The notes under the pieces are model-generated. The model was not told where the DNA came from. It saw only the letters and a program-made list of their open reading frames with translations, and ran no database searches. This document shows positions 8,003 through 46,653 of a DNA stretch of 64,000 nt, piece after piece. The first letter of the stretch is position 1. Each line of letters begins with the position of its first letter. The DNA comes from Saccharopolyspora erythraea NRRL 2338 (lineage in GTDB: Bacteria > Actinomycetota > Actinomycetes > Mycobacteriales > Pseudonocardiaceae). The translations under genes and the position numbers were made by a program. Where the stretch lies: NCBI RefSeq assembly GCF_000062885.1, contig NC_009142.1, positions 3,337,584 through 3,401,583 of the forward strand. Direction: 5' to 3'.

Positions 8003-9775
8003 TCAGACCGGCTGGCGGGTGTCGGACCACGCCTTCCACAGCGCCGCGTAGCGGCCGCCCGCCGCCACCAGCTCGTCGTGGGTGCCGGTCTCGACGACCT
8101 GCCCCGCGTCGAGCACGACGATCCGGTCCGCGGCAGCCGCCTGCGTCAGGCGGTGCGCCACCACCAGCGCGGTGCGGCCCTCCAGGGCCCGCGCGGCGGC
8201 GGTCTCCAGCTCCCGCGCGCCGCTGCTCCCCGCCTCGGCCGTGGCTTCGTCCAGGATCGCCACCGGCGGGTCGGCCAGCACGAGCCTGGCCAGCGCGAGC
8301 TGCTGCGCCTGGGTGGCGGTGAGCCGGTGGCCGCCGTCGCCGACCACGGTCTCGATGCCGTCGGGCAGCGCCTCGGCCCACTCCAGGGCGCGGACGCGCT
8401 CCAGCGCCGCGCGCAGGTCGTCGTCGGTGGCGCCGGGACGGGCCAGCCGCAGGTCGTCGGCCAGCCTGCCGGCGAAGACGTGCACCTCCTGGCTGATCAG
8501 CGCCACCGCCGCGCGGGTCGCGGTCGGGCCGAGCTCGTCGAGCGGGACGCCGCCGAGGCTGATCGACCCGGTCGTGGGCCGGTGCACCCCGGCCAGCAGC
8601 TTGGCCACCGTGGTCTTGCCCGCTCCACTGGCACCGACCAGCGCGACCTTCTCCCCGGCGTCGATGTGCAGGTGCAGGTCGCTGAGGATCTCGTGGCCCG
8701 GCACGTATGAGTGGGCGACACCGCTGGCCTTCACCGAGGTGTCCAGCAGGGCGGGCGGCGACTGCGGCTCGGCCGCGGCGGGCAGGTCGGCCACGCCCAC
8801 CAGGCGGGCGAGGCTGGCGCCCGCCGACTGGGCGTCGTCGGCCAGCGCGAGCGCGATGTTGACCGGCGTGAACAGGCTGTGGAAGTACAGCGCGGCGGCG
8901 GTCGCGGTGCCGATACTGACCTGCCCGTCACCGACCAGCAGGAACCCGGTCACCAGCACGGCGGCCAGGCCGACGAACTCGGCGAGGTTGAGCCGGGAGA
9001 AGAACCTGCTCAGCAGCCGGACCCCGCGCAGGGACAGCGCCACGGCCGCCCCCGAACGCTGCCGCACCTTCCCGACGTGCGCGTCGGAGAGCCCGAACGC
9101 GCGGACCGTGCGGGCGCCTCCGATGGTGTCGAGGAGCTGCTGCTGCTGGACTCCGACGGTGACGCGCTGCTCGGAGTAGATCGGCGGCGCGCGGCGGCCG
9201 TACCAGCGCAGCGTGTAAACCTGGATCGGCGCGGCCAGCAGCGCCGCGAGGAGGAAACGCCAGTCCAGCAGCGCGAGCCCGCCGAGCGTGAGCGCGATGG
9301 TCAGCACCGCCTGGGCGAGCTCCGGCAGCGGTTCCCGCACCGACTTGGCGATCATCGACACGTCGTTGGTGACCCGCGCGGTGAGGTCGCCGGAACCGGC
9401 GCGTTCGATGCGATCGAGCGGCAGGTGCAGCACCCGCTGCACGAAGACCTCGCGCAGCGTCGCGAGCAGCGTCTCGCCGAGTCTGCCCATCAGCGACAGC
9501 CCGCAGCCGGTGGCCGCGCCGCGGGCGACGGCGACCAGCCCGAGCAGCGCCACCGGCCAGGTCAGCGCGTCGGCGGGCTGCCCGGAGGCGATGACGTCGA
9601 CCACGCGGCCGAGCAGCGGCGCGGTCAGCAGGCTGATCGCGGTGGCCGCGAGCAGGACCGCGAACGCGGCCCCTGCCAGCGGCCAGTGCGCGCGGAGCAG
9701 GGAGCCGACCACGCCGCGGGTGCGGGCCGGGGTGGCGGTGGGGAGCAGGTCGCCCTGCACAGGTGCCTCCGTCAT
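8003..9775 (-). CDS. ABC exporter half-transporter (TMD-NBD), consensus Walker A, degenerate signature
   Basis: 590 aa: an N-terminal six-helix exporter domain (about residues 25-330) and an ATPase domain. Walker A GASGAGKTT lies near residue 380, Walker B with ILDEATAEAG near 505 and the H-loop AHRL near 540, all intact. The signature motif is LTATQ near 485 instead of LSGGQ. The ATG start overlaps the stop of the upstream gene (ATGA), so the two half-transporters are made together and presumably form a heterodimer. With the NRPS next door and an iron box before the operon, export of the hydroxamate siderophore is the likely role; the cargo is inferred from context. The stated start follows the ATGA overlap; the frame stays open further upstream but that is antisense shadow. 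Confidence 0.92.
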   Translation of the reverse strand: MTEAPVQGDLLPTATPARTRGVVGSLLRAHWPLAGAAFAVLLAATAISLLTAPLLGRVVDVIASGQPADALTWPVALLGLVAVARGAATGCGLSLMGRLGETLLATLREVFVQRVLHLPLDRIERAGSGDLTARVTNDVSMIAKSVREPLPELAQAVLTIALTLGGLALLDWRFLLAALLAAPIQVYTLRWYGRRAPPIYSEQRVTVGVQQQQLLDTIGGARTVRAFGLSDAHVGKVRQRSGAAVALSLRGVRLLSRFFSRLNLAEFVGLAAVLVTGFLLVGDGQVSIGTATAAALYFHSLFTPVNIALALADDAQSAGASLARLVGVADLPAAAEPQSPPALLDTSVKASGVAHSYVPGHEILSDLHLHIDAGEKVALVGASGAGKTTVAKLLAGVHRPTTGSISLGGVPLDELGPTATRAAVALISQEVHVFAGRLADDLRLARPGATDDDLRAALERVRALEWAEALPDGIETVVGDGGHRLTATQAQQLALARLVLADPPVAILDEATAEAGSSGARELETAAARALEGRTALVVAHRLTQAAAADRIVVLDAGQVVETGTHDELVAAGGRYAALWKAWSDTRQPV

Positions 9776-31332: not shown

Positions 31333-32247
31333 ATGGGTCTGGACAACGCTCGTGCCGTTGCCGATGCCGTCCTGTTCGAGGGATACCTGCTCTACCCGTA
31401 CCGCGCCTCGGCGTTGAAGAACCGCATGCGCTGGCAGTTCGGCGTGCTCGCGCCGAACTCCGGTGGCGCGGGCGAGCCCTCCCACGCGCGGACCGAATGC
31501 CTGGTCGAGCCCGGGGCGGAACCGGTGTTCGACATCCGGGTGCGCTTCCTGCACCTGCGCAGGCACGCGACCACCCCTTCGTGGGATGAGGGCGTGGTGC
31601 GCGAGATCCCCGTGGCGGCCAGCATCCGCGACGAGGGCACCCACGAGTTCCCCTGGGAGATCGGCGAAGACGGCGAAGCCGGGCGAGACGAGCGCACGTG
31701 TCGGCTCAACGGAGTGGTCCGCCTCGAGGTGCGCGGCGTCGAGGACGCCTCGGAACTGCGCAAGGTCGCGGTCACCGTGGAGAACCGGACTCCGTGGACG
31801 CCGCGTCCGGGCGACGGCCGCGACGAGATGCTTCGCCGCGCCATGGTGTCGGCCCACACCATGCTGGCCGTCCAGGACGGCGGATTCCTCTCGCTGCTCG
31901 ACCCGCCGCAACGGGCCCGCGCGGCGGCGAAGTCCTGTCGCAACGAGCACACCTGGCCGGTGCTGGTGGGCGAGCCGGGCTCGAACGACGTCGTGCTGTC
32001 GGCGCCGATCATCCTCTACGACCACCCGGCGGTGTCGGCGCAGAGCCCCGGGGACCTGTTCGACGCCACCGAGATCGACGAGATCCTCACGCTGCGCACC
32101 ATGACCCTGACCGATGCGGAGAAGCAGGAGGTCAGGGAGACCGACCCGCGTGCGGCCGAGCTGATCGAACGCACCGAGGGTCTGCCGCCCGAGATCCTCG
32201 AACGCCTGCACGGCACGGTGCGCTTCCCGCAGCGGGAGGGACGATGA
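31333..32247 (+). CDS. Hydrogenase-locus protein of unknown function (304 aa)
   Basis: 304 aa from ATG 31333 with GGGGGAG upstream; the open frame extends further 5' but that part spans the hairpins and is not coding. No catalytic motif is recognised. The N terminus has L-F-E-G-Y-L-L-Y-P-Y-R-A-S-A-L-K-N, and the C-terminal 60 residues are acidic and helical. Only two Cys are present. The stop overlaps the protease start (ATGA). Genes like this recur, as I recall, at the head of actinobacterial group 1h hydrogenase operons, so an accessory or assembly role is likely. Soluble, no signal peptide. Confidence 0.75.
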   Translation: MGLDNARAVADAVLFEGYLLYPYRASALKNRMRWQFGVLAPNSGGAGEPSHARTECLVEPGAEPVFDIRVRFLHLRRHATTPSWDEGVVREIPVAASIRDEGTHEFPWEIGEDGEAGRDERTCRLNGVVRLEVRGVEDASELRKVAVTVENRTPWTPRPGDGRDEMLRRAMVSAHTMLAVQDGGFLSLLDPPQRARAAAKSCRNEHTWPVLVGEPGSNDVVLSAPIILYDHPAVSAQSPGDLFDATEIDEILTLRTMTLTDAEKQEVRETDPRAAELIERTEGLPPEILERLHGTVRFPQREGR

Positions 32248-32765
32248 GCGGCAAGGTCCTCGTCGCGGGCATCGGGAACGTGTTCCTGGGCGACGACGGC
32301 TTCGGGGTGGAGGTCGTGGGCCGCCTGCTGGAGGAGGAACACCCCGCAGGCGTGCGGGTCGCCGACTTCGGCGTCCGCGGCGTCCACCTCGCCTACGAGC
32401 TGATGAACGGGTACGACGCCGTGGTGCTCGTGGACGCGGTGCCCCTGTCGGAGGAGCCGGGCACCGTCCAGGTCGTCGAGGTCGACCTGGACGCCGTCGA
32501 GCCGGCGGCCCCCGGCGCGGCCGCCCCGGTGATGGACGCCCACGGCATGACGCCCGACGCGGTGTTCGGCCTGTTCAGAGCTCTCGGCGGCAGCGTCGGC
32601 AGAGCGCTGGTGGTGGGCTGCCGGCCCCTGGACTGCTCGGAGCGGATGGGCCTGTCCGAACCGGTCGCCGGAGCCGTCGACCGGGCTGCCGGCCTCGTGC
32701 GCGAGCTGGTCGGCGAACTGACCGCCGCGCCGCGGGCGGAACCCGGTTTCGAACCGCGCCGCTGA
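32244..32765 (+). CDS. Hydrogenase maturation protease (HybD/HycI family)
   Basis: 173 aa from ATG 32244 (ATGA overlap with the previous gene). Family motifs intact: VLVAGIGNVFLGDDGFGVEV at the N terminus with the nickel-binding acidic residue in GDDGFG, the second Asp in ADFGVRG near residue 41, Y-D-A-V-V-L-V-D-A near 55, and D-A-H-G-M near 96 providing His. The enzyme clips the C-terminal peptide of the large subunit after Ni insertion. The large subunit here has a 21-residue tail after DPCLPCGVH for it to remove. Confidence 0.94.
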   Translation: MSGKVLVAGIGNVFLGDDGFGVEVVGRLLEEEHPAGVRVADFGVRGVHLAYELMNGYDAVVLVDAVPLSEEPGTVQVVEVDLDAVEPAAPGAAAPVMDAHGMTPDAVFGLFRALGGSVGRALVVGCRPLDCSERMGLSEPVAGAVDRAAGLVRELVGELTAAPRAEPGFEPRR

Positions 32766-33993: not shown

Positions 33994-35784
33994 ATGGCCA
34001 CTCAGCGGACCAAAGCCGGTGCGCAGCAGCGCAACATCGTCGACGTCGAGTTCGACCCGATCACCCGGATCATCGGCAACCTGGGGATCTACACCAAGGT
34101 CGACTTCGCCAACAACGAGGTCGTGGAGTGCAAGAGCACCTCCTCGATCTTCCGCGGCTACAGCGTCTTCATGAAGGGCAAGGACCCGCGCGACGCGCAC
34201 TTCATCACCAGCCGGATCTGCGGCATCTGCGGTGACAACCACGCGGTCTGCTCGATCTACGCGCAGAACATGGCCTACGGGGTCAAGACCCCGCCGCTGG
34301 GCGAGTGGATCATCAACCTCGGCGAGGCGGCCGAGTTCATGTTCGACCACACCATCTTCCAGGACAACATGGTCTTCATCGACTTCTGCGAGAAGATGGT
34401 CTCGGAGACCAACCCCGGCGTCGTCCGGCAGGCCGAGCAGAAGGCCGCGCCGCGCGGCGACATCCACGGCTACCGCACCATCGCCGACATCATGCGCTCC
34501 TTCAACCCCTTCGAGGGCGAGATGTACAAGGCGGCGCTGGAGATGAGCCGGGTGACCCGGGAGATGTGCTGCCTCATGGAGGGCAGGCACGTGCACCCGT
34601 CCACGCTGTACCCGGGCGGGGTGGGCACGGTGGCCACGCCGCAGGTCTTCACCGACTACCAGGTCCGGCTGGTGCGGGTGCTGGACTTCATCAAGCGCGC
34701 CGTGGCGATGAACGACGACGTCTTCGACTTCTTCTACGAGGCGCTGCCCGGCTACGAGGAGGTCGGCAGGCGGCGCACGCTGCTGGGCTGCTGGGGCTGC
34801 TTTCAGGACCCGGAGGTCGTCGACTACGACTACCGCAACATGACCGAGTGGGGCCGGTCGATGTTCGTCACGCCCGGCATCGTGGTGGACAACGAGCTGG
34901 TCACCACCAACCTGGTCGACATCAACCTCGGGATGCGCATCCTGCTCGGCAGCTCCTACTACGAGGACTGGACGAGCGAGCACACGTTCGTCGACCGCGA
35001 CCCGCTGGGCAACCCGGTCGACCAGCGCCACCCGTGGAACCAGACCACGCTGCCCGCGCCGCAGAAGCGCGATCTCGACGGCGGCAACTACAGCTGGGTG
35101 ATGAGCCCGCGCTGGTTCGACAAGCGCACCGGCGACCACCTCGCGCTGGACACCGGCGGCGGACCGATCGCGCGGCTGTGGTCCACGGCGCTGGCCGGGC
35201 TGGTCAACACGCCCTACGTGCGTTCCACCGGGCGAAGCGTGGAGATCGACCTGCCGCGCGGCCAGTCGTTGCCCGACATGCAGCTGGAGTGGACGCCGCC
35301 GGCGTTCCCCAACACGATCGAGCGCAACCGCGCGCGGATGTACTTCGTCGCCTACGCCGCGGGGATGGCGCAGTACTTCCTGGACCGCGCGCTGGCCGAG
35401 GTGCGCTCGGGCAACACCAAGGTGTTCGCCGACTTCAACGTCCCGGACGAGGCCATCGGCGTCGGGTTCCACGAGGCCGTGCGCGGTGTGCTGTCGCACC
35501 ACCTGGTCATCCGCGACGGCAAGATCGCCAACTACCACCCGTACCCGCCGACGCCGTGGAACGCCAGCCCGCGCGACTTCTACGGCACGCCGGGGCCCTA
35601 CGAGGACGCGGTGCAGGGCCAGCCGATCTTCGAGGAGAACGGGCCCGACGACTTCAAGGGCATCGACATCATGCGCACCGTGCGCAGCTTCGACCCGTGC
35701 CTGCCGTGCGGGGTCCACATGTACCTCGGCGGTGGCCGGGTGCTGCAGAAGTCGCATTCGCCGATGTTCGGCGGCTCGGCGTGA
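33994..35784 (+). CDS. hhyL: [NiFe]-hydrogenase large subunit, group 1h/5 type
   Basis: 596 aa. The N-terminal L1 motif RICGICGDNHAVCS (residues 74-87) and the C-terminal L2 motif DPCLPCGVH (567-575) supply the four Cys that bind the Ni-Fe centre. After the final His a 21-residue tail ending in MFGGSA is the likely substrate of the maturation protease. It begins 21 bp after hhyS. Long inserts compared with classical group 1 enzymes, including C-W-G-C-F-Q-D-P near residue 264, agree with the group 1h type. Confidence 0.97.
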   Translation: MATQRTKAGAQQRNIVDVEFDPITRIIGNLGIYTKVDFANNEVVECKSTSSIFRGYSVFMKGKDPRDAHFITSRICGICGDNHAVCSIYAQNMAYGVKTPPLGEWIINLGEAAEFMFDHTIFQDNMVFIDFCEKMVSETNPGVVRQAEQKAAPRGDIHGYRTIADIMRSFNPFEGEMYKAALEMSRVTREMCCLMEGRHVHPSTLYPGGVGTVATPQVFTDYQVRLVRVLDFIKRAVAMNDDVFDFFYEALPGYEEVGRRRTLLGCWGCFQDPEVVDYDYRNMTEWGRSMFVTPGIVVDNELVTTNLVDINLGMRILLGSSYYEDWTSEHTFVDRDPLGNPVDQRHPWNQTTLPAPQKRDLDGGNYSWVMSPRWFDKRTGDHLALDTGGGPIARLWSTALAGLVNTPYVRSTGRSVEIDLPRGQSLPDMQLEWTPPAFPNTIERNRARMYFVAYAAGMAQYFLDRALAEVRSGNTKVFADFNVPDEAIGVGFHEAVRGVLSHHLVIRDGKIANYHPYPPTPWNASPRDFYGTPGPYEDAVQGQPIFEENGPDDFKGIDIMRTVRSFDPCLPCGVHMYLGGGRVLQKSHSPMFGGSA

Positions 35785-37210: not shown

Positions 37211-37932
37211 CCACCGGCGAGCAGGAGGTCCCGGCCGGCGCCCGCGCCGGTGCCGGTGAGCCGGACGGGCGGCAGGCGGCGCCGGAGCTGGCCTTCCAGG
37301 TCACCGGCGCGGCACCGGTGCGCTTCGCGGCGGTGCCGACGCTGTCGTTCCGGATCGGGGTGAGCAGGACCGGCGGTGGCCCGGTCCGCTCCATCACGCT
37401 CACCACGACCGTCCGGATCGCGGCGCCCCGACGGCGCTACCGGCCGGAGGAGCAGGCGCTGCTCACCGAGCTGTTCGGCACTCCCGACCAGTGGGCCCGC
37501 ACGATGCGTCCGCTGCCGTGGGCCCGGTCGACGACGGTGGTCGCGCCGTTCACCGACAGCACCGCGACCGAGGTGCCCGTGGCGTGCACGTGGGACGTCG
37601 AGCTGGCCGTGGCAAAGTACTTCCTGGCGGTGCGCGACGGCGGTGTCCCGCTGGACTTCATGTTCAACGGCACCGTTTTCTTCGAAGGCGAGGACGGGCG
37701 GCTGCGCACCGCGCAGATCTCGTGGTCGACCGACACGACGTTCTTGCTGCCCGCGGAGCTGTGGCACGAGGTGGTCGACGCCTCTTCGCCCGGCAACGCG
37801 TGGCTGCGCCTATCCCGGGACACCTTCGAGCGGCTCTACGCCCGCAGGAGCCGGTCCGCGGCAGGCGGGTGGGACGAGGTGGTCAACGCACTGCTCGACG
37901 ACGTCGAGCCGGATCCGGGACGACAGCCATGA
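37207..37932 (+). CDS. DUF6084-like hydrogenase-locus protein
   Basis: 241 aa, GTG start in a GTGA overlap with the preceding small gene. Beta-rich, with F-R-I-G-V-S-R-T near residue 48, the segment W-A-R-S-T-T-V-V-A-P-F-T near 105 and Y-F-L-A-V-R-D-G-G-V-P-L-D-F-M-F-N-G-T-V-F-F near 140. No Cys apart from one, no catalytic motif. I recall this as DUF6084, another companion of actinobacterial hydrogenases. Its stop overlaps the next gene (ATGA). Confidence 0.75.
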   Translation: MTTGEQEVPAGARAGAGEPDGRQAAPELAFQVTGAAPVRFAAVPTLSFRIGVSRTGGGPVRSITLTTTVRIAAPRRRYRPEEQALLTELFGTPDQWARTMRPLPWARSTTVVAPFTDSTATEVPVACTWDVELAVAKYFLAVRDGGVPLDFMFNGTVFFEGEDGRLRTAQISWSTDTTFLLPAELWHEVVDASSPGNAWLRLSRDTFERLYARRSRSAAGGWDEVVNALLDDVEPDPGRQP

Positions 37933-38648
37933 GCGCGGTGGAGCCCGCGGGCCGGGGCGTCGAGTTCCGCAGGGGCAGCCGGGTCCGGCTGCGGCCCGCG
38001 CAGCGCGCCGACATCGTCGACCTGACGCTGTCGGGCCGGACCGCGCGGGTGGACCGGGTGGAGGAGTACGAGGACGGCCGGATCCACGTCGTGGTCGCCC
38101 TCGACGGCGACCCCGCCTGCGACCTCGGCGCGATGAGCCAGATCGGGCACCGCTTCTTCTTCGCGCCCGAGGAGCTGGAACCGATCGGCGGCGAGCAGGA
38201 CGGCAGCGCGGTCCTGGTGGCCGCGGTCGGTGACGCGTTCGTCCCCGGTGGCGGGTTCGGCGCCTCCGTGGTCGAGCGGCTGCGGGCCCGGGAGCACCGC
38301 CACGACGTGCGCCTCAACGACTTCGGCATCCGGACGTCGGATCTCGTGCGCGCGGTGGCCGACGAGGACTTCCACGCCGTGTTGCTGGTCTGCGCGCTGC
38401 GGCAGGGCCGCCGGCCCGGTGCCGTGTCGGTGTGGGAGGCCGCCGCGGTGACCACTCCGGAGTCCGACGACGCGGCGTTCGTCTTCGCCCTCACGCGGCG
38501 GCTCCAGCGGCACTGCGGCCGGGTTCTCGTGCTGGCCGGTGAGCCGGCGCGCGGCGGCGCGGCCGAACACCTCGACGAAGCGGTCCGGGTCCTCGACACC
38601 CTGGTCGGGGACATCACGACGGCCCGCCAGGCACCGACAGGACGGTGA
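37929..38648 (+). CDS. Fusion of a small N-terminal domain with an inactive maturation-protease domain
   Basis: 239 aa, ATGA overlap upstream. The first 95 residues form a small domain of unknown type (R-R-G-S-R-V-R-L-R-P near the start, S-Q-I-G-H-R-F-F-F-A near 75). From about residue 98 the sequence parallels the true protease at 32244: VLVAAVGDAFVPGGGFGASV against VLVAGIGNVFLGDDGFGVEV, then L-N-D-F-G-I-R-T against A-D-F-G-V-R-G and H-A-V-L-L-V-C-A-L against D-A-V-V-L-V-D-A-V. The metal-binding acidic pair of GDDGFG is replaced by PGGGFG and the DAHGM His segment is absent, so it should not cleave. A chaperone or Ni-site checkpoint role is inferred. Confidence 0.8.
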   Translation: MSAVEPAGRGVEFRRGSRVRLRPAQRADIVDLTLSGRTARVDRVEEYEDGRIHVVVALDGDPACDLGAMSQIGHRFFFAPEELEPIGGEQDGSAVLVAAVGDAFVPGGGFGASVVERLRAREHRHDVRLNDFGIRTSDLVRAVADEDFHAVLLVCALRQGRRPGAVSVWEAAAVTTPESDDAAFVFALTRRLQRHCGRVLVLAGEPARGGAAEHLDEAVRVLDTLVGDITTARQAPTGR

Positions 38649-38787: not shown

Positions 38788-38812
38788 ACGACCGTCCAAC
38801 ATCGACGGTCGT
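38788..38812 (+). terminator. Hairpin between hydrogenase structural and maturation operons
   Basis: ACGACCGTC (38788-38796) pairs perfectly with GACGGTCGT (38804-38812) around a 7-nt loop, starting at the base after the stop codon of the 43-aa gene. It probably limits read-through into the SIS/hyp genes. Confidence 0.55.
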
Positions 38813-38906
38813 CACGCACGGGCGGGTCTGATCGATTTGTGGGCCCGCCGCACCGGACTTAGCTTGAGACCGCCCGCGAACACGGACCCATGGGAGAAGT
38901 GACCGC

Positions 38907-39530
38907 ATGCAACGGTCGTCCGACAACGGCGCCTGCGACGCGCTGGACGTGATCTTCGCGCGCCGCGCCGATCCCGTGGCCGAACTGCTGGACGACGCCG
39001 AGGCGGTCGCGCGGACCTGCCACGCGATGGCGCGCCGGTTCCACGCCGGCGGCAAGCTCGTCGTCTTCGGCAACGGCGGTCCCAGCACCGACGCCCAGCA
39101 CGTGGCGGTGGAGTTCGTGCACCCCGTGATCGTGGGCAAGCGCGCGCTGCCCGCCGTCTCGCTCACCTCCGACGTGGCCACCGTGACCGGCGTCGCCAGC
39201 GGCAGCGGCCTCGACGAGATCTTCGCCCACCAGGTGCACCACCTCGCCGACCCCGACGACATCGCGCTGGGCATCTCCACCGACGGGCGTTGCGCAAACG
39301 TCCGCCGCGGGCTGGAGGCGGCGCGCGCCCGGGGGCTGCTGACCGTCGGGCTGGTCGGCGGCGACGGCGGTTCGATCGCGGCGGGCGGGTTCGACCACGT
39401 GCTCGTCGCGCGGGCCACCGATCCCCGCGTCGTCAAGGAGGTGCACGTGACGATGTACCACGTGCTGTGGGAGCTGGTGCACGTGTTCTTCGACCACCCG
39501 GGCACGCTCGAGGCGGAGGCGGGCGCATGA
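38907..39530 (+). CDS. SIS-domain protein 1 in the hyp operon
   Basis: 207 aa. GmhA-like SIS domain: phosphosugar-binding loop VVFGNGGPSTDAQHVAVEF near residue 51, D-D-I-A-L-G-I-S-T-D-G-R near 119 and Y-H-V-L-W-E-L-V-H-V near 187. Classical members isomerise sedoheptulose 7-phosphate, but no heptose gene is nearby and the second loop, usually S-T-S-G-N-S, reads S-T-D-G-R-C, so catalysis is doubtful. The stop overlaps the HypC-like gene (ATGA). Placement in the hydrogenase maturation operon suggests a dedicated role with its paralog at 39754. Confidence 0.85.
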   Translation: MQRSSDNGACDALDVIFARRADPVAELLDDAEAVARTCHAMARRFHAGGKLVVFGNGGPSTDAQHVAVEFVHPVIVGKRALPAVSLTSDVATVTGVASGSGLDEIFAHQVHHLADPDDIALGISTDGRCANVRRGLEAARARGLLTVGLVGGDGGSIAAGGFDHVLVARATDPRVVKEVHVTMYHVLWELVHVFFDHPGTLEAEAGA

Positions 39531-39757
39531 GCGCCGGGCCGTCGCGGGAGCAGGCACCGGCGTGCACCGGTGAGCGCTGCGTGACGTGCTCGGACGAGGC
39601 GGTCGCCGTCGAGGTCCTGCGGCTGCTCGACGACGGGCTGGCGCTGGTGGCCACCGACGCGGGCGAGGAGGAAGTGAGCGTGGCCCTCGTCCCGGCCCGC
39701 GTCGGCGACACCGTGCTGGTCCACGCCCGCGAAGCCATCGCGATCATGAAGGGGTGA
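39527..39757 (+). CDS. Divergent HypC-like protein
   Basis: 76 aa from ATG 39527 (ATGA overlap with SIS protein 1; GTGA overlap with SIS protein 2). The HupF/HypC beta-barrel is visible in V-E-V-L-R-L-L-D-D-G-L-A-L-V, E-E-V-S-V-A-L-V-P and V-G-D-T-V-L-V-H-A. Unlike true HypC it does not begin Met-Cys; instead Cys occur internally in ACTGERCVTCSD near residues 12-22, a CxxC-containing stretch that could bind metal. The canonical hypC is encoded 700 bp further on, so this is a second, specialised copy. Confidence 0.8.
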   Translation: MSAGPSREQAPACTGERCVTCSDEAVAVEVLRLLDDGLALVATDAGEEEVSVALVPARVGDTVLVHAREAIAIMKG

Positions 39758-40434
39758 GCGACGTGGACTCCACTCGCGGCGAGGCTTCCGGGACCGAGGC
39801 GCTCTACCCGTTCCTCAGTCCCGCCCACACCGACGTCGGCGGCGTGCTGAACGAGGTCAGGCGGTCCACTCAGGACAAGGTCCGTGAGATCATGGCGCTG
39901 CGCGAGCAGGTCCGGCTGCGCGACGGCCGGAAGCTGGTCGAGTGCGCCGAGGCGATGGCCGAGCGCTTCCGCGCCGGGGCGCGGTTGTTCGCCTTCGGCA
40001 ACGGCGGAAGCTCCACCGACGCCCAGGACCTGGCGAGCCTGTTCCTGCACCCGGGGCCGGGATGGCGCGCGCTGCCCGCGTTCGGTCTCACCAGCGACAT
40101 CGCCGTGGTCACGGCGCTGTCCAACGACGTCGGCTTCGACGTGGTCTTCGCGCGCCAGATCGGCGCGTTCGGGCGTCCCCAGGACATCGCCGTCGGCCTG
40201 TCCACCAGCGGCAACTCGGCCAACCTCCTGCGCGCCTTCGACGAGGCCGCCCGCCGCGGGATGCTCACCGTGGGCATCGCGGGCGACCGGGGCGGCAAGA
40301 TGGCCGAGTCCGCCGGCATCCACCACCTGTTCGTGGTGCCCTCGGCCTCGGTGCACCGCATCCAGGAGGCCCAGACCACGCTCTACCACGCGCTGTGGGA
40401 GCTCACCGCCACGGCGCTGGGTCCCGCCGACTGA
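39754..40434 (+). CDS. SIS-domain protein 2 in the hyp operon
   Basis: 226 aa from GTG 39754 in a GTGA overlap; GTG 39763 is an alternative. SIS loop LFAFGNGGSSTDAQDLASLF near residue 75 and V-G-L-S-T-S-G-N-S-A-N-L near 148 are both intact, unlike SIS protein 1, so this copy keeps the phosphosugar-binding residues. Y-H-A-L-W-E-L-T closes the domain. It precedes hypC by 22 bp. The two SIS proteins may form a heteromer with one competent and one degenerate site; substrate unknown. Confidence 0.85.
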   Translation: MSDVDSTRGEASGTEALYPFLSPAHTDVGGVLNEVRRSTQDKVREIMALREQVRLRDGRKLVECAEAMAERFRAGARLFAFGNGGSSTDAQDLASLFLHPGPGWRALPAFGLTSDIAVVTALSNDVGFDVVFARQIGAFGRPQDIAVGLSTSGNSANLLRAFDEAARRGMLTVGIAGDRGGKMAESAGIHHLFVVPSASVHRIQEAQTTLYHALWELTATALGPAD

Positions 40435-40456: not shown

Positions 40457-40729
40457 ATGTGCCTGGCGATTCCGGGTGAGGTGCTCGAAGTCCTCGCCGA
40501 CCGGCCCGAACTGGCCAAGGTGGACGTCAGCGGCGTCCGCCGCAACATCAACATCGGCCTGCTGGGCGACGAGCCGCCGGAGCCGGGCGAGTGGGTGCTG
40601 ATCCACGTCGGCTTCGCGCTGTCCAAAATAGACGAGTCCGAGGCGCGGGCGGTCCTGGAGTTCCTGGAGAGCGTCGGCCAGGCCTACGCCGACGAGCTCG
40701 AAGCCCTGCACGACTCGCGCATCGACTAG
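40457..40729 (+). CDS. hypC: HypC hydrogenase maturation chaperone
   Basis: 90 aa, beginning MCLAIPGEV: the N-terminal Cys is the essential residue that, with HypD, carries the Fe(CN)2CO unit to the large subunit. The barrel continues with V-D-V-S-G-V-R-R-N-I-N-I-G-L-L and P-G-E-W-V-L-I-H-V-G-F-A. GAGGAGA precedes the start. hypD begins 10 bp after the stop. Confidence 0.97.
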   Translation: MCLAIPGEVLEVLADRPELAKVDVSGVRRNINIGLLGDEPPEPGEWVLIHVGFALSKIDESEARAVLEFLESVGQAYADELEALHDSRID

Positions 40730-40739
40730 GAGCCGCCCC

Positions 40740-41867
40740 ATGCGTTTCGTCGACGAGTACCGCGACGCGGCCAAGGCCCGCGCGCTGTCGGCCAAGATCA
40801 GGGACCTGTGCGAACCGGGCCGCCAGTACAAGTTCATGGAGGTGTGCGGCGGGCACACCCACACGATCTACAAGCACGGCCTGGAGGACTACCTCCCGGA
40901 GAACATCACGCTGGTGCACGGTCCCGGCTGCCCGGTGTGCGTGATCCCGATGGGCCGCGTCGACGACGCGATCCACATCGCAGGCCGCCCCGGCGTGCTG
41001 ATGACCTCGTTCGGCGACATGATGCGGGTGCCCGGCGGCAACGGCACCTTCTTCGACTCCAACGCCGAGGGCACCAACATCAGGATGGTCTACTCGCCGC
41101 TGGACTCGATCAAGCTCGCGCGGCAGAACCCCGAGCAGCACGTGGTGTTCATGGCCATCGGGTTCGAGACCACCGCGCCGTCCACGGCGATGACGCTGCT
41201 GCGCGCGGAGCAGGAGGGGCTGGAGAACTTCTCGGTCTTCTGCAACCACGTGACCATCATCCCGGCGATCAAGGCGATCCTGGACTCACCGGACCTGCGG
41301 CTGGACGGGTTCCTCGGTCCCGGCCACGTCTCGACGGTGATCGGCTGCCGTCCCTACGAGTTCATCGCCCGCGACTACGGCAAGCCGCTGGTGGTCTCCG
41401 GCTTCGAGCCACTGGACATCCTGCAGTCGGTCTACATGCTGCTGCTCCAGCTCGCCGAAGGCCGTTCGGAGGTCGAGAACCAGTACACCCGCGTCGTGCC
41501 GTGGGACGGCAACACCACCGCGCTGGCGGTCATCTCGCGGACCATGGAGCTGCGCCCGTACTTCGAGTGGCGCGGGCTGGGCTTCATCTCGCACTCGGCG
41601 CTGCGCCTGCGCGAGCGCTACGAGCGGTTCGACGCCGAGAAGCTGTTCGAGCTGCCCGGGGTCCGCGTCGCCGACCCGAAGGCGTGCCAGTGCGGCGAGG
41701 TCCTCAAGGGCGTGCTCAAACCGTGGGAGTGCAAGGTGTTCGGCACCGCCTGCACGCCGGAGACGCCGATCGGGACGTGCATGGTCTCGCCGGAGGGCGC
41801 CTGCGCCGCCTACTACAACTTCGGCCGCTTCAGCCGCGAACGCGTCAAGGAGGCGAGCAGGACGTGA
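40740..41867 (+). CDS. hypD: HypD, Fe-S scaffold for Fe(CN)2CO assembly
   Basis: 375 aa, standard length. Conserved motifs in order: FMEVCGGHTHTIYKHG near residue 31, GPGCPVCV near 60, G-F-E-T-T-A-P-S-T near 140, and the C-terminal Cys set (C-Q-C-G-E-V-L-K-G, W-E-C-K-V-F-G-x-x-C-T-P and G-T-C-M-V-S-P-E-G-A-C-A-A-Y-Y) that holds the [4Fe-4S] cluster. HypD works with HypC and receives cyanide from HypE. Its stop overlaps hypE (GTGA). Confidence 0.98.
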   Translation: MRFVDEYRDAAKARALSAKIRDLCEPGRQYKFMEVCGGHTHTIYKHGLEDYLPENITLVHGPGCPVCVIPMGRVDDAIHIAGRPGVLMTSFGDMMRVPGGNGTFFDSNAEGTNIRMVYSPLDSIKLARQNPEQHVVFMAIGFETTAPSTAMTLLRAEQEGLENFSVFCNHVTIIPAIKAILDSPDLRLDGFLGPGHVSTVIGCRPYEFIARDYGKPLVVSGFEPLDILQSVYMLLLQLAEGRSEVENQYTRVVPWDGNTTALAVISRTMELRPYFEWRGLGFISHSALRLRERYERFDAEKLFELPGVRVADPKACQCGEVLKGVLKPWECKVFGTACTPETPIGTCMVSPEGACAAYYNFGRFSRERVKEASRT

Positions 41868-43045
41868 GCAGCGATCAGGACGCCACCGCCGGCGTGGAGC
41901 CGGGGCGCACGCCGGGGTGGGTCGCCGACGCGATGGTCCACCACGAGCGGGAAGGGCAGCCGGGCTCCGGCCACGCCACGCGCGAGGAGCAGGTCCTCGA
42001 ACGCATCGACCGGGCGCGACGGCGCAAGGCGAAGGTCAAGGAGGACCGCGTCACGCTGGCCCACGGTTCGGGTGGCAAGGCGACCCAGACGCTGGTCGAG
42101 GCGATCTTCCTGGAGAGCTTCCGCAACCCGCTGCTGGAGCGGATGGAGGACGGCGCCGAGCTCGCGGTCAACGGATCCCGGCTGGCGTTCACGACCGACT
42201 CCTTCGTGGTCTCCCCGCTGTTCTTCCCCGGCGGCGACATCGGCGACCTCGCCGTCAACGGCACGGTGAACGACCTGGCGGTCTCCGGAGCGACCCCGCT
42301 CTACCTGTCGGCGGGCTTCATCATCGAGGAGGGCTTCCCGGTCGCCGAGCTGACCCGCATCGTCGAGTCGATGTCGGCGGCGGCTGCGCGCGCGGGCGTT
42401 CAGGTCGTCACCGGGGACACCAAGGTCGTGCAGAAGGGCAAGGCGGACGGCTGCTACGTCAACACCGCCGGCGTCGGCCTCATCGAGACCGGCCACCGGC
42501 TGGGGGCCGACACCGCCCGGCCCGGCGACGCGGTGCTGGTGTCGGGTCCGATCGGGGACCACGGCGTGACGGTGATGCTCGAACGCGGCGAGCTGGACAT
42601 CGACGCCGACATCACCTCCGACACCGCCGCCGTCAACGGCATGGTCGCCGGCCTGCTGGCGGCCGTTCCCGGCGTCCGGGCGATGCGCGACGCGACCCGC
42701 GGCGGCGTGGCCACCGTGCTGAACGAGATCGCCAGGGCATCGGACGTGTCGGTCGTGGTGGACGAGGCCGAGGTCCCGGTGCGCACCGAGGTTCGCGGCG
42801 CCTGCGAGCTGCTGGGCATCGACCCGCTCTACGTCGCCTGCGAGGGCCGGATCGTGGTGGTCGTCGACGGGGCGCAGGCCGAGACCGCGCTGGCGGCGCT
42901 GCGGTCGCACCCGCTGGGCGGCGGCGCGGCGCTGATCGGGCGGATCGGGGACGACCCGCCGGGGCTGGTGCTGCTCAACACCGCGTTCGGCGGCACCAGG
43001 ATCGTCGACCTGCTCGTCGGCGACCCGCTGCCCCGGATCTGCTGA
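41864..43045 (+). CDS. hypE: HypE, thiocarbamate dehydratase for CN ligand synthesis
   Basis: 393 aa from GTG 41864, set by the GTGA overlap with hypD. The conserved protein begins about residue 65 with V-T-L-A-H-G-S-G-G-K, so there is a polar N-terminal extension of some 60 residues not found in the E. coli enzyme. PurM/ThiL-type ATP-binding features follow (T-D-S-F-V-V-S-P near 110; V-N-D-L-A-V-S-G near 137; G-D-T-K-V-V near 184). The C terminus is DPLPRIC, whose last Cys is the carrier of the carbamoyl/cyano group. Confidence 0.97.
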   Translation: MSSDQDATAGVEPGRTPGWVADAMVHHEREGQPGSGHATREEQVLERIDRARRRKAKVKEDRVTLAHGSGGKATQTLVEAIFLESFRNPLLERMEDGAELAVNGSRLAFTTDSFVVSPLFFPGGDIGDLAVNGTVNDLAVSGATPLYLSAGFIIEEGFPVAELTRIVESMSAAAARAGVQVVTGDTKVVQKGKADGCYVNTAGVGLIETGHRLGADTARPGDAVLVSGPIGDHGVTVMLERGELDIDADITSDTAAVNGMVAGLLAAVPGVRAMRDATRGGVATVLNEIARASDVSVVVDEAEVPVRTEVRGACELLGIDPLYVACEGRIVVVVDGAQAETALAALRSHPLGGGAALIGRIGDDPPGLVLLNTAFGGTRIVDLLVGDPLPRIC

Positions 43046-43055
43046 GCGCGGCGAC

Positions 43056-43385
43056 GTGCACGAGCTGGGGATCACCCAGGGCATCGCGGAGGCGGTGCTC
43101 GACGCCGTCGCCGACGCCAGGGTCACCTGCGTGCACCTGGAGATCGGCAGGCTCTCCGGAGTGGTCGCCGACTCCGTGCGGTTCTGCTTCGACCTGGTGG
43201 CGGAGGGAACCGCGCTGGAGGGCGCCAGGCTGGAGATCGCCGAACCGGCCGGGTGGGGTGCCTGCCGCGACTGCGGGAACGAGTTCGACGTGACCGGCCC
43301 GATCGCGCTCTGCCGCTGCGGTGGGGGCGACGTGGCGGTGCTGGCCGGCCGCGAACTGCGGATCAGATCGGTGGAGGTGGAGTAG
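43056..43385 (+). CDS. hypA: HypA, nickel-delivery metallochaperone
   Basis: 109 aa from GTG 43056. Opens MHELG with His2 and Glu3, the nickel-binding residues. The zinc site is unusual: C-R-D-C-G-N near residue 70 as expected, but the second half reads LCRCGGGD, a CxC instead of the usual CPxCG. Partner of HypB encoded 4 bp downstream. The N-terminal domain (E-I-G-R-L-S-G-V-V-A-D-S-V-R-F-C-F) is typical. Confidence 0.94.
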   Translation: MHELGITQGIAEAVLDAVADARVTCVHLEIGRLSGVVADSVRFCFDLVAEGTALEGARLEIAEPAGWGACRDCGNEFDVTGPIALCRCGGGDVAVLAGRELRIRSVEVE

Positions 43386-43388
43386 ACG

Positions 43389-44285
43389 ATGTGCGCCACG
43401 TGCGGATGCTCGGACGACGCGGGCACGCGGATCAGCGGGCCGGACGCGGACGACCACGGCGACGGGCACGGCCACGGACATGGACACGGACATGGACATG
43501 GACATGGACATGGTGACGGGCACGGCCACGGTCATGGCCACGACAACGGGCACGGGCACGGCGACCGGGAAGACGCGCGGACGATCGACCTCGAACAGCG
43601 GGTGCTGGCCAAGAACGACCGGCTGGCAGAGCAGAACCGCCGATGGCTGTCCGGAAACGGGGTCCTCGCTCTCAACCTGATGAGCTCGCCGGGCTCGGGC
43701 AAGACCACGCTGCTCGAACGCACGCTGCGCGAGCTCGGCACCGAGGTCGGTGTCTCGGTGGTCGAGGGCGATCAGGAGACCCGCTTCGACGCCGAGCGCA
43801 TCCGCGCCACCGGCTGCCGGGTCGTGCAGGTCAACACCGGAGCGGGCTGCCACCTCGACGCCGGCATGCTCGGCGACGCCCTGCGGGCGCTGGACCCGCC
43901 GCGGCGCTCGGTGGTCTTCGTGGAGAACGTGGGAAACCTGGTGTGCCCGGCGCTGTTCGACCTGGGGGAGCGGTTCCGGGTCGTGATCGCCTCGGTCACC
44001 GAGGGCGCGGACAAGCCGCTGAAGTACCCGCACATGTTCCGCACCGCCGACCTGGTGGTGCTGAACAAGGTCGACCTGCTGCCGCACCTGGACTTCGACG
44101 TCGAGGCGTTCGCCGCGAACGTGCGGCAGGTCAGGCCGCGAGCGCGGATCGTGGAGGTCTCGGCGACCACGGGCCAAGGGCTGGACCGCTGGTACGGCTG
44201 GCTGCGCGACAGCCTGGCGGATCCGGGAGACGCGGTCAGCGCAGCCGGTCCCGCGCCCCGGCGACAACCGCCTGACCGAAGCTGA
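43389..44285 (+). CDS. hypB: HypB, nickel-binding GTPase with His-rich arm
   Basis: 298 aa. The N terminus MCATCGC is the high-affinity CxxCGC nickel site; residues about 23-58 are a His/Gly/Asp-rich metal-storage arm with repeated G-H units. The GTPase core follows: P-loop SSPGSGKTTLLE near residue 100, V-E-G-D-Q-E-T near 124, E-N-V-G-N-L-V-C near 178 and the guanine motif L-N-K-V-D near 224. It supplies Ni to the large subunit with HypA. The last 50 bp overlap the end of convergent hypF. Confidence 0.97.
   Translation: MCATCGCSDDAGTRISGPDADDHGDGHGHGHGHGHGHGHGHGDGHGHGHGHDNGHGHGDREDARTIDLEQRVLAKNDRLAEQNRRWLSGNGVLALNLMSSPGSGKTTLLERTLRELGTEVGVSVVEGDQETRFDAERIRATGCRVVQVNTGAGCHLDAGMLGDALRALDPPRRSVVFVENVGNLVCPALFDLGERFRVVIASVTEGADKPLKYPHMFRTADLVVLNKVDLLPHLDFDVEAFAANVRQVRPRARIVEVSATTGQGLDRWYGWLRDSLADPGDAVSAAGPAPRRQPPDRS
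43444..43566 (+). repeat. Short tandem repeats encoding the His-rich arm of HypB
   Basis: Repeated 6-bp units of the type GGACAT/GGACAC and GGCCAC run through this stretch, encoding alternating Gly-His with some Asp. Such runs are prone to slippage, so arm length may vary between strains. Confidence 0.8.
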
Positions 44286-46494
44286 TCCCGCCGTCGTTGG
44301 CGGGCACCCGGGAGTGGGTCAGGGTGCGGAAGCCGCGCGACTCCAGCCGGGCCACCGTTCGTTCCAGCAGCAGCATGTTCTGGAACACCCCGCCCGAGAG
44401 GGCGACCGCGTGCAGGCCCGTCGAGAGCCTGATCCGCTCGCACGCTTCGGTGACCAGCCGCGCCAGTCCGTTGTGGAACCTCGCCGACACGACCGGTGGC
44501 CGCACACCGGCACGCACGTCGTGGACGGCGGCACGCACCAGGTCGGTTGCCGGAATGGCTCCGCCCCGCGGGTCTCCCGTCCGGTACGCGCCGGGTTCGT
44601 GCCGGTCGGCGAGCTGTTCGAGCTCGATGGCGGCCTGGCCCTCGTAGCTGACCATGTCGCGGACGCCGAGGATCGCGGCCACCGCGTCGAAGAGCCTGCC
44701 CGCGCTCGAGGTCAGCGGCGAGTTGAGGCCGTGCTCGACGAGCTGGGCGACCTCCGGCCAGCTCGGGTTGCGGCGCAGCACTTCGTCCTCCGCCAGCTCC
44801 CCGCATGCGATCAGGTGGGAGACCGCCATCCGCCAGGGCTGGCGGATCGCTGCCGCGCCACCGGGCATGGGGACCGGCGCGAGGTGCGCCGCGCGTTCGA
44901 AGTCGGCGAGTCCGGCCACCAGGAACTCCCCGCCCCACAGGGTGCCGTCGGTGCCGTAGCCCAGCCCGTCGAAGGCGACGCCGATCACCGGTCCGGTCTC
45001 GGTGTTGTCGGCCAGGCAGGAGGCGATGTGCGCGTGGTGGTGCTGGACGCCGGTCAGCTCGACGCCGGTCAGCTCGCGGGCGTACTTGGTCGACAGGTAC
45101 TCGGGGTGCAGGTCGTGCGCCACGATCGCGGGCCGCACGTCGAACAGCTTGCGGAAGTGCTCGACGCCACTGGTGAACGACTTCAGCGTCTCGTAGTTCT
45201 CCAGGTCCCCGATGTGGTGGGAGACGAAGACGTGCCGCTGCTTGGCGACGCTGAAGGTGTTCTTCAGCTCCGCGCCGCAGGCGAGCACGGGACGCGGGAA
45301 CTCCCAGGGCACCGCGAGTGGTTCCGGGGCGTAGCCGCGGGACCGGCGCACCAGCATCGGCCGGCCGCGGAACGCGCGCACCACCGAGTCGTCGGTGCGG
45401 ACGTGGATGGGTCGGTCGTGGGTGAGGAACGCGTCGGCGATGCCGGAAAGCCGTCGCAACGCGTCGTCGTCCTGGTGGGCGATCGGTTCGTCGGAGACGT
45501 TGCCGCTGGTGAGCACGATCGGTGTGGCGCATCGGCGCAGCAGGAGGTGGTGCAGCGGCGTGTACGGCAGCATGAGCCCCAGACGCGGGTTGCCCGGCGC
45601 CACGGCGGGGGCGATCGGCCCCGTGCCGGACCGCAGCCGCAGCAGCACGATCGGGCGACGGCGCGAGGTCAGCAGCTCGGCCTCGGTGTCGTCGAGGGTG
45701 ACCAGCTCGCGGGCGTGGTCCACAGTGGCCACCATCACCGCGAACGGCTTGTCCTCGCGCAGCTTCCGCTTGCGCAGCGCCAGCGCCGCGTCCTCGTCGG
45801 TGGCGTCCACCGCGAGGTGGTAGCCGCCGAGTCCCTTGACCGCGAGCACTTCGCCACGCGCGAGCACCGCCGCGGCCTCCTCGACCGGGTCGCCCCCGCG
45901 CGGAGCACCGGAGGCGTCGAGCAGGGCGAGCGTCGGCCCGCACGCCCGGCAGCACACCGGCTGCGCGTGGAAGCGCCGGTCGGCGGTGTCGCCGTACTCC
46001 GCGGCGCAGGCGGCGCACATGGCGAAGCCGGCCATCGTGGTCAGCGGACGGTCGTAGGGCACGTCGCGGACGATGGTGAACCGCGGACCGCAGTTGGTGC
46101 AGTTGACGAAGGGATAGCCGAAGCGCCGGTCGCCGGGGTCCGACAGCTCGCGGAGGCAGTCGTCGCAGGTGGCGCTGTCGGCCGACACGAGCGCTTCGCG
46201 GTGGCCTGCCGAGGAGCTGGCGACGATGTGGAAACCGGTGTCGCCCAACGGCTCCACCGGCACCGCCGCGACGTCCTCGACCACCGCCAGCGGCGGGGCC
46301 TGCGGCCGCAGGGACGCCACGAACAGCTCGACGGCTTCCTCGGTGCCCTCCACCTCGATGAACACGCCGTGCAGGTCGTTGCCGACGTGTCCGGCCAGAC
46401 CGAGCCGGGTGGCCAGCGAATGGACGAAAGGGCGGAAACCCACGCCCTGCACCACACCCTGGACCCTGACCCGCACCCGGACTCGCCCGTTCAC
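44236..46494 (-). CDS. hypF: HypF carbamoyltransferase
   Basis: 752 aa from GTG 46494, giving the family's usual length; ATG 46530 is an alternative adding 12 residues. Domains in order: acylphosphatase (V-Q-G-V-V-Q-G-V-G-F-R-P-F-V near residue 11), two zinc fingers (C-D-D-C-L-R-E-L..C-T-N-C-G-P and C-A-A-C..C-C-R-A-C-G-P, about 105-185), YrdC-like (about 200-380) and a Kae1-like domain with HHHAHIASCLADN near 480 and L-S-G-G-V-F-Q-N near 700. It makes carbamoyl-AMP from carbamoyl phosphate and passes the carbamoyl group to HypE. Convergent with hypB and overlapping it by 50 bp. Confidence 0.96.
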   Translation of the reverse strand: MNGRVRVRVRVQGVVQGVGFRPFVHSLATRLGLAGHVGNDLHGVFIEVEGTEEAVELFVASLRPQAPPLAVVEDVAAVPVEPLGDTGFHIVASSSAGHREALVSADSATCDDCLRELSDPGDRRFGYPFVNCTNCGPRFTIVRDVPYDRPLTTMAGFAMCAACAAEYGDTADRRFHAQPVCCRACGPTLALLDASGAPRGGDPVEEAAAVLARGEVLAVKGLGGYHLAVDATDEDAALALRKRKLREDKPFAVMVATVDHARELVTLDDTEAELLTSRRRPIVLLRLRSGTGPIAPAVAPGNPRLGLMLPYTPLHHLLLRRCATPIVLTSGNVSDEPIAHQDDDALRRLSGIADAFLTHDRPIHVRTDDSVVRAFRGRPMLVRRSRGYAPEPLAVPWEFPRPVLACGAELKNTFSVAKQRHVFVSHHIGDLENYETLKSFTSGVEHFRKLFDVRPAIVAHDLHPEYLSTKYARELTGVELTGVQHHHAHIASCLADNTETGPVIGVAFDGLGYGTDGTLWGGEFLVAGLADFERAAHLAPVPMPGGAAAIRQPWRMAVSHLIACGELAEDEVLRRNPSWPEVAQLVEHGLNSPLTSSAGRLFDAVAAILGVRDMVSYEGQAAIELEQLADRHEPGAYRTGDPRGGAIPATDLVRAAVHDVRAGVRPPVVSARFHNGLARLVTEACERIRLSTGLHAVALSGGVFQNMLLLERTVARLESRGFRTLTHSRVPANDGGISFGQAVVAGARDRLR

Positions 46495-46653
46495 CCGTCC
46501 AGTGTCGCGCCGGTACGCGGCCACAGCCATCCGGCGGAACCGGCGCCGATCCGCGTTCTTCCTTGCACCGACGGTGTTTTCGCGCTGCCGGTAGCCGCGA
46601 ACTGTCCTCCAGTCGGTGGCGTCCTGCCGCCCGGATGTGCTAAGTCGGGAGGC

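Follow-up and report, generated by a model that had tools for sequence, protein, structure and literature searches.

In Saccharopolyspora erythraea NRRL 2338, three genes at positions 38907-40434 of the window, i.e. the whole stretch of 64,000 nucleotides analysed here (contig NC_009142.1, positions 3,337,584 to 3,401,583, from a genome of 8,212,805 bases), are flanked by hydrogenase structural and accessory genes on one side and by the hydrogenase maturation genes hypC-D-E-A-B on the other. They encode two GmhA-like SIS-domain proteins, SIS1 and SIS2, and, between them, a HypC-like barrel protein (HCL). Judging from the residues conserved, neither SIS protein appears to have a complete GmhA-type active site, SIS1 being the putative metal-ligand half and SIS2 the putative phosphate-plus-Gln half, and it is probable, at roughly two chances in three, that both together constitute a composite metallo-enzyme whose substrate is a small phosphorylated molecule and which takes part in the assembly of Fe(CN)2CO. 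A previous reading of the same DNA, made from the letters alone (the sequence-only reading hereafter), had placed three open reading frames (ORFs) here with hypC-D-E-A-B directly downstream, as the ORFs confirm, and had proposed a heteromeric sensor or enzyme for hydrogenase maturation, with one intact and one degraded site. The heteromeric unit finds support in the complementary residues, gene fusions and genomic context; the description of the sites does not stand, as the residue counts point to two half-sites, and because these would be a metal-ligand half and a phosphate-plus-Gln half, an enzyme is favoured over a sensor.

Complementary residue losses in SIS1 and SIS2

The features concerned are as follows (SIS2 residues being numbered from 39754):
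38907..39530, + strand: SIS1, GmhA-like SIS protein, putative metal-ligand half (PF13580 E 9.7e-14, alignment, 107-row residue counts)
39099-39101, 39111-39113 and 39459-39461, + strand: SIS1 H65, E69 and H185, equivalent to the metal residues H61, E65 and H180 of E. coli GmhA
39276-39293, + strand: degraded loop 2 of SIS1, STDGRC
39435-39437, + strand: SIS1 K177, Lys in place of the ligand Gln
39527..39757, + strand: HCL, HypC-like barrel with N-terminal C-x4-C-x-T-C-x-D motif (PF01455, 30.2 bits)
39754..40434, likelier start 39763, + strand: SIS2, GmhA-like SIS protein (PF13580 E 4.3e-15, alignment, 107-row counts)
39997-40014 and 40201-40218, + strand: phosphate loops of SIS2, both kept
40363-40365, + strand: SIS2 Q204, Gln kept
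40027-40029 and 40039-40041, + strand: SIS2 D92 and L96, replacing the metal His and Glu

Regarding family membership, both proteins carry the SIS_2 domain (PF13580; 52 bits for SIS1 and 56.4 bits for SIS2 against a threshold of 27) and have gmhA as best NCBIfam match, but reach neither the gmhA equivalog cut-off of 209.45 bits (118.7 and 127.4 bits, respectively) nor the DiaA cut-off of 352 bits (77.9 and 76 bits). Their PDB matches at E 0.001, 15 distinct sequences for each, are annotated as phosphoheptose isomerase or DiaA. As the sequence-only reading had it, loop 2 of SIS1 is degraded (STDGRC) and both loops of SIS2 are intact (GNGGSSTD and STSGNS); loop 1 of SIS1 is altered too (GNGGPSTD), and it had missed that SIS2 has lost the metal His and Glu. 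The residues H61, E65, Q172 and H180 (E. coli GmhA numbering, used from here on) occur together in neither SIS1 (one row excepted for Q172) nor SIS2, and do so in 5 of 5 single SIS proteins of proteobacteria.

The residue counts come from an alignment of 107 SIS1 and 107 SIS2 domains with E. coli K-12 GmhA, four GmhA-like proteins and five proteobacterial single SIS proteins; the SIS2 of locus L085 was left out for split hits, that of L095 entered in two pieces, and L057 yielded SIS1 alone and L171 SIS2 alone. In SIS1, the metal ligands H61 and E65 are present in 107/107 rows and H180 in 106/106 rows with a letter there, and, of the phosphate-loop residues, S119 is retained in 92 rows and T120 in 24, S124 in a single one (C in 85) and S121 in 0/107 (D in 83). 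Q172 is absent in 105/106 rows, position 172 holding K in 91, T in 11, R in 2, A and Q in 1 each, and a gap in 1. SIS2 presents the converse pattern, with S55, D94, T120, S121, S124 and Q172 each in 104/104 rows with a letter, and neither H61 nor E65 in any of these 104. The two halves add up to a whole composite site in 101 of the 105 loci having both proteins, the four incomplete ones (L046, L062, L095 and L201) corresponding to gaps at scored positions. As controls, E. coli GmhA and the four GmhA-like rows, as well as nine further actinobacterial SIS proteins, keep H61, E65, Q172 and H180. In mycobacterial-type loci, SIS2 mostly lacks H180 too (Y in 11/14) and SIS1 lacks both loops, so that the division of labour appears to go deeper there.

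Part of this constancy follows from the sampling: the named loci are the best 80 of 360 confirmed and were chosen by two SIS1 peptide patterns, and because these patterns cover H61/E65 and K172, the constancy of SIS1 residues in the 80 named loci is partly by construction. Among the SIS1 rows from elsewhere (n=27), which are related to one another rather than independent events, as are all rows outside the named loci, H61 and E65 are nonetheless found in 27/27, H180 in 26/26 with a letter and Q172 in 1/26; in the SIS2 rows from elsewhere (n=28), loops and Q172 are kept in 28/28 with H61 and E65 in none, and the composite is complete in 26 of the 27 such loci with both genes, the remaining one having a gap.

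Regarding the substrate, R69 is replaced by P in SIS1 (107/107), in the single SIS proteins (5/5) and in SIS2 (97/102 rows with a letter), and D169 by H in the single form and in 103/104 SIS2, a position that varies among GmhA-like proteins as well. As both of these GmhA residues are exchanged in the proteins tied to hydrogenases, sedoheptulose 7-phosphate is an improbable substrate.

The residue sets kept by SIS2 and SIS1 appear to match the two sides of the known GmhA interface, where, in the available text of the structural study, the zinc ligands H61, E65 and H183 belong to one monomer and Q175 to the adjacent one (PMC5387315); in a docking model of a different GmhA, loops and Gln bind the substrate and the Glu is contributed by the other monomer (PMC7705670). 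Like GmhA, SIS1 and SIS2 share the fold, the loop motifs, the metal-ligand and Gln positions and a presumed cross-subunit site; unlike GmhA, the site would be divided between two paralogues, R69 is a Pro, the scores lie under the NCBIfam cut-off and the genes stand in hyp operons. We thus propose SIS1 and SIS2 as subfunctionalised halves of one GmhA-type metallo-isomerase site formed across their interface, in which SIS2 would bind the substrate, a small phosphorylated molecule, by its phosphate end and supply the Gln, and SIS1 would supply two His and one Glu as ligands of the catalytic metal, which is zinc in GmhA. The reverse pairing would be dead, leaving the heteromer with half of GmhA's sites. 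The sequences themselves show the complementary losses, the fusions, the order of the genes, their association with hyp genes and an undivided proteobacterial form; complex formation, metal binding, catalysis, docking by HCL and the maturation step concerned are inferred from these.

Many SIS domains are regulatory, and the pair could instead be a non-catalytic sensor of a sugar phosphate, through which the metabolic state would gate HypC/D/E assembly. Such a function, to which the two phosphate loops retained by SIS2 and the near relationship to the regulatory DiaA would be suited, is unlikely: a sensor would have no need of H61/E65/H180, and this triad persists in every SIS1 row with a letter despite the lost phosphate-loop residues, the catalytic set being likewise retained in the undivided protein of proteobacteria.

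Gene fusions, phylogeny and predicted structure of the SIS pair

SIS1 and SIS2 form a single open frame in eight actinobacterial loci (L080, L083, L089, L091, L187, L188, L191 and L193) and one annotated protein on a Thermus plasmid. Besides, SIS1 and HCL are joined in 12 ORFs across the genomes surveyed and in one annotated protein on a Mycobacterium intracellulare plasmid. A further candidate SIS1-SIS2 fusion, L075, was rejected, the HCL gene lying between them in another frame; in L036, HCL and SIS2 share one open frame and may be fused. In a 63-row tree, a quick-method reconstruction from a subset of rows with long branches flagged, SIS1, SIS2, the proteobacterial single form and the GmhA-like proteins each occupy one side of a branch (SH-aLRT 99, 95, 100 and 97), and the Amycolatopsis fusion L083 is placed apart from the other fused rows. 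The predicted model of this fused protein (pTM 0.81, from 4 sequences) aligns over 420-437 columns, spanning both domains, with tandem-SIS proteins of the GlmS type (TMq 0.55-0.64, rmsd 4.6-6.7) and gives single-domain matches to GmhA as well.

The HypC-like barrel protein

HCL lacks an N-terminal Met-Cys and carries ACTGERCVTC instead, as the sequence-only reading had described. Its C18 and C21 are internal and invariant in 42 aligned rows; in the named loci, CxTCxD is found in 75/75 HCL and C-x4-C in 68/75. Compared with HypC/HybG/HupF, HCL passes the Pfam HupF_HypC gathering score (30.2 vs 28.5 bits) but falls under the NCBIfam hypC_hupF cut-off (15.6 vs 48 bits). Its AlphaFold model is a strand-only barrel (mean pLDDT 84, the N-terminal 20 residues being of low confidence) that would have the HypC barrel fold: Foldseek pairs it with HypC 3vyt_A, from the HypC-HypD-HypE crystals, at TMt 0.85 and E 2.7e-3, and with OB domains of proteasome ATPases at about equal E-value, no match reaching E 0.001. 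With neither the Met-Cys start nor, in the model, the C-terminal helix of HypC, HCL was rejected as a HypC sensu stricto. HCL, which is encoded beside SIS1 or, in one lineage, fused to it, probably serves as a docking piece between the enzyme and the HypC-HypD-HypE scaffold on which Fe(CN)2CO is assembled, or hands the enzyme's product over to this scaffold.

A metal or iron chaperone might also be envisaged, in which the composite His/Glu/His/Gln set and the Cys motif of HCL would load iron on HypC-HypD with a phosphoryl ligand as gate. The metal triad and the constant CxTCxD motif would fit such a role, as would the iron source being called unresolved in the abstract of a study whose title nevertheless favours the Isc machinery as this source in E. 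coli (PMC10847431). It is nevertheless rather improbable, as metal transfer alone leaves the strict keeping of the phosphosugar loops and Gln unexplained and a scan of 6 proteobacterial loci with the single SIS gene detected no HCL.

Genomic context and distribution

In the 80 named loci, selected with a SIS1 query, tblastn finds SIS1 in 80, SIS2 in 79 and HCL in 75, so that the three genes co-occur more than by chance; 77 of them also contain one or more hyp or hydrogenase subunit genes, the others being L046 (a 4.6 kb contig), L072 (a contig ending about 1 kb past SIS1) and L042. In a survey of 394 genomes of the class, with at most 8 first-look candidates scored per genome (7 in the SIS2 search, at most 3 in the group 1h and HypX searches), SIS2 was called at E below 1e-55 in 27, and hydrogenase or hyp genes lie in the same stretch in 27/27; G081 and G132 (1e-42 to 1e-43) were set aside, the G081 protein grouping with GmhA in the tree. 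Far from being mostly away from hydrogenase loci, which the sequence-only reading had named as fatal to its proposal, the trio thus stands beside hydrogenase or hyp genes in nearly all cases.

This context also bears on whether two ordinary gmhA genes for cell-envelope sugar synthesis could have come into the operon by chance. Annotation as gmhA or phosphoheptose isomerase (PMC3359211, in the part available) and the best NCBIfam match would be in line with a heptose enzyme, but the scores are far under the gmhA cut-off, neither site is whole, R69 is replaced and hydrogenase or hyp genes adjoin in every SIS2 genome, all of which makes it very hard to believe.

The link to group 1h hydrogenases does not hold as a strict tie. 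A group 1h-type large subunit (E below 1e-140; G282, at 40% identity, being set aside) occurs in 76/394 genomes, 20 of which have SIS2, and 7 of the 27 SIS2 genomes show none, 3 of these 7 being only 81-88% complete. From gene neighbours and the accessible part of PMC7735108, several SIS2 genomes lacking group 1h may be taken as having group 2a. Regarding the scaffold, HypDs linked to SIS score at least 587 against a SIS-type profile and others at most 509 among the loci printed, the profile having itself been trained on SIS-linked HypDs.

Outside actinobacteria, the order hypF-hypC-SIS-hypD-hypE is found on Cupriavidus pHG1 and on Afipia, Bradyrhizobium, Sphingopyxis, Mesorhizobium and Novosphingobium plasmids, and hypF-SIS-hypD-hypE in Methylocystis. 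The 5 aligned proteobacterial single SIS proteins keep the whole residue set, one with S124A. This form, e.g. H16_RS31885 between hypC and hypD on C. necator pHG1, resembles the SIS pair in neighbourhood, in the Pro following the metal Glu and, as SIS2, in the His at D169; it differs in having the whole site in one protein and no detected HCL. No description of its function was found in the literature searched. Among 94 plasmid records matching SIS2, 12 were read, 10 of them in hyp loci, 1 unannotated and 1, on an Azospirillum plasmid, among glycosyltransferases. Sulfobacillus, in which the SIS gene is broken and lies in two frames, has the gene order of Thermus, and in both a glutaredoxin-like gene stands between the SIS gene and hypF (L212 10617-10877; L217 6619-6846).

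HypX and the supply of the CO ligand

HypX, which synthesises CO in aerobic maturation of hydrogenases and uses formyl-tetrahydrofolate (PMC12134894, as far as its text is available), is like SIS an extra gene in some aerobic hyp sets, but its domains are unrelated to those of SIS and HCL, and neither the SIS proteins nor HCL carry the formyltransferase and enoyl-CoA hydratase domains. With a HypX query from a Streptomyces-like genome (recognised by Pfam domains, the genus being deduced), matches at E 1e-30 are found in 31/394 class genomes; none was found at this threshold in the S. erythraea genome, where the best match (E 6.1e-13) concerns the hydratase part and one weak match (E 0.0014) the formyltransferase part. 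Among the 76 group 1h genomes, 18 have SIS2 only, 22 HypX only, 2 both and 34 neither (Fisher p 0.023, a test that ignores phylogeny). On C. necator pHG1 (L210 and L223), the first hyp set ends in HypX and has no SIS, and the second has SIS with no HypX in the stretch read. Together with the genome counts, this split is at most suggestive; HypX as a strict alternative to SIS2 was rejected, given the 2 genomes with both and the 34 with neither.

In the dual genomes (L225-L228), no hyp genes were seen around HypX in the 6 to 20 kb read, and HypX may have another function there. More broadly, HypX-like proteins in eight surveyed genomes (L225-L232) have no hyp gene in the 6 to 20 kb read, and a HypX-like sequence alone may not be a marker of hydrogenase maturation.

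From these distributions, one could imagine the SIS unit supplying, as a second aerobic pathway, the CO ligand of the NiFe cofactor or its C1 precursor in hyp sets lacking HypX, by metal-bound enediol chemistry on a sugar phosphate with delivery through the HypC-like carrier. This is speculative and decidedly doubtful, because 34 genomes have neither and all 22 HypX-only genomes share one genus code.

Observations weighing against a composite maturation enzyme

Several points count against the composite enzyme or its role in maturation. Group 1h genomes show no SIS2 in 56 of 76 cases, which also speaks against the group 1h tie, and the L042 trio of Haloechinothrix has no hyp or hydrogenase subunit gene detected by tblastn within 10 kb on either side. 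The group 2a hyp operon of Parageobacillus, as far as its description is available, lists no SIS gene (PMC12976888); a GST-N gene stands there between hypE and hypF. A single clade of SIS-linked HypD was rejected (AU test p 0.038, with E. coli HypD inside on a long branch), and for that reason only the gap in HypD scores is retained. The sole SIS1 row with Gln at 172 is the Thermus half. Besides, the SIS1:SIS2 complex was modelled solely as a natural fusion, with 4 sequences in the alignment. Regarding the interface, zinc ligands are shared between two chains, and three chains contribute to each site, in GmhA inhibitor complexes (PMC11056994, in part); because of these three chains, the attribution of loops and Gln to the same chain rests partly on the docking model.

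On Pseudonocardia plasmid L221, an HCL-like gene (8052-8228) has an acylphosphatase gene beside it, and its listed neighbours include neither a SIS gene nor hypD nor any hydrogenase gene, which also weighs on that side; the gene is perhaps a remnant.

Other features of the locus

The remaining hydrogenase-related features of the window are the following:
ends 33972: hydrogenase small-subunit ORF (ORF)
33994..35784, + strand: hydrogenase large subunit, 'group 1h' by the label of the sequence-only reading (ORF; survey query)
40457..40729, + strand: canonical hypC, MCLAIPG (PF01455 E 6.5e-25; TIGR00074 81.7 bits vs 48)
40740..41867, + strand: hypD (ORF; profile scores)
41864..43045, + strand: hypE, start approximate, ending ...PRIC (ORF; profile search)
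43056..43385, + strand: hypA (ORF; synteny)
43389..44285, + strand: hypB, His-rich N-terminal stretch (ORF; synteny)
44236..46530, - strand: hypF, opposite strand (ORF; synteny)

Two gene overlaps had been described in the trio. The ATGA at 39527-39530 is indeed common to the SIS1 stop and the HCL start; the GTGA exists at 39754-39757, but because GTG 39763, with AAGGGG 8 bases upstream, is the likelier SIS2 start, an HCL-SIS2 overlap is uncertain. From this start, SIS2 has the 223 aa printed for SACE_3071, and the lengths of SIS1 (207), SIS2 (223) and HypD (375) agree with those printed for SACE_3069, SACE_3071 and SACE_3073 in the part available (PMC3359211). The same source reports frameshifts in both SIS genes and a nonsense change in hypD in the S. 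erythraea erythromycin over-producer Px.

A hairpin of roughly 8 base pairs occupies 38788-38830, between SIS1 and the small ORF preceding it; its energy z-score is -1.66, 13/200 shuffles being as good, which would be weak evidence for a separate transcript. HypB (43389-44285) has a long His-Gly repeat close to its N-terminus, which presumably serves nickel storage. The window also holds two genes resembling hydrogenase maturation proteases, at 37929-38648 and 32244-32765; the former aligns with the latter but lacks its Asp and His at what we take, from M52 proteases, to be metal positions, scores under the NCBIfam cut-off (33.5 vs 47.45 bits) and is perhaps another half-dead partner.

Relation to published work and concluding remarks

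The sequence-only reading knew of no assigned function for the trio, and this was fair, save that the association itself is already in print, unexplained. In the parts of these sources available, HypD, HypE and GmhA are clustered in Clostridium and the link called unclear (PMC3231954), GmhA is listed among the maturation proteins of a group 2a cluster (PMC7735108), a SIS gene cluster of 68 appears in a table (PMC12727194), MSMEG_2706 is listed as gmhA (PMC5445863) and both SIS genes of the S. erythraea operon are named gmhA (PMC3359211). The terms 'isomerase' and 'SIS domain' have no match in PMC10657181, PMC13098282 and PMC6883350, and complementary half-sites were not found mentioned in the literature searched, most subscription journals lying outside its reach. 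The maturation proteins named in the available text of PMC12134894 are HypA-F, HypX and the ancillary HoxL/HupF and HoxV/HupK, with no SIS protein among them.

The enzyme-like SIS component standing by hypC/hypD in Actinomycetota, Pseudomonadota, Thermus and, in broken form, Sulfobacillus is a candidate for a missing maturation part, which the predicted composite active site makes open to single-residue tests. It may also matter when high-affinity hydrogenases are to be made in foreign hosts, since failures there might be due to a maturation factor missing from the current lists. If true, an enzymatic step in building the hydrogen-oxidising catalyst would have been overlooked.

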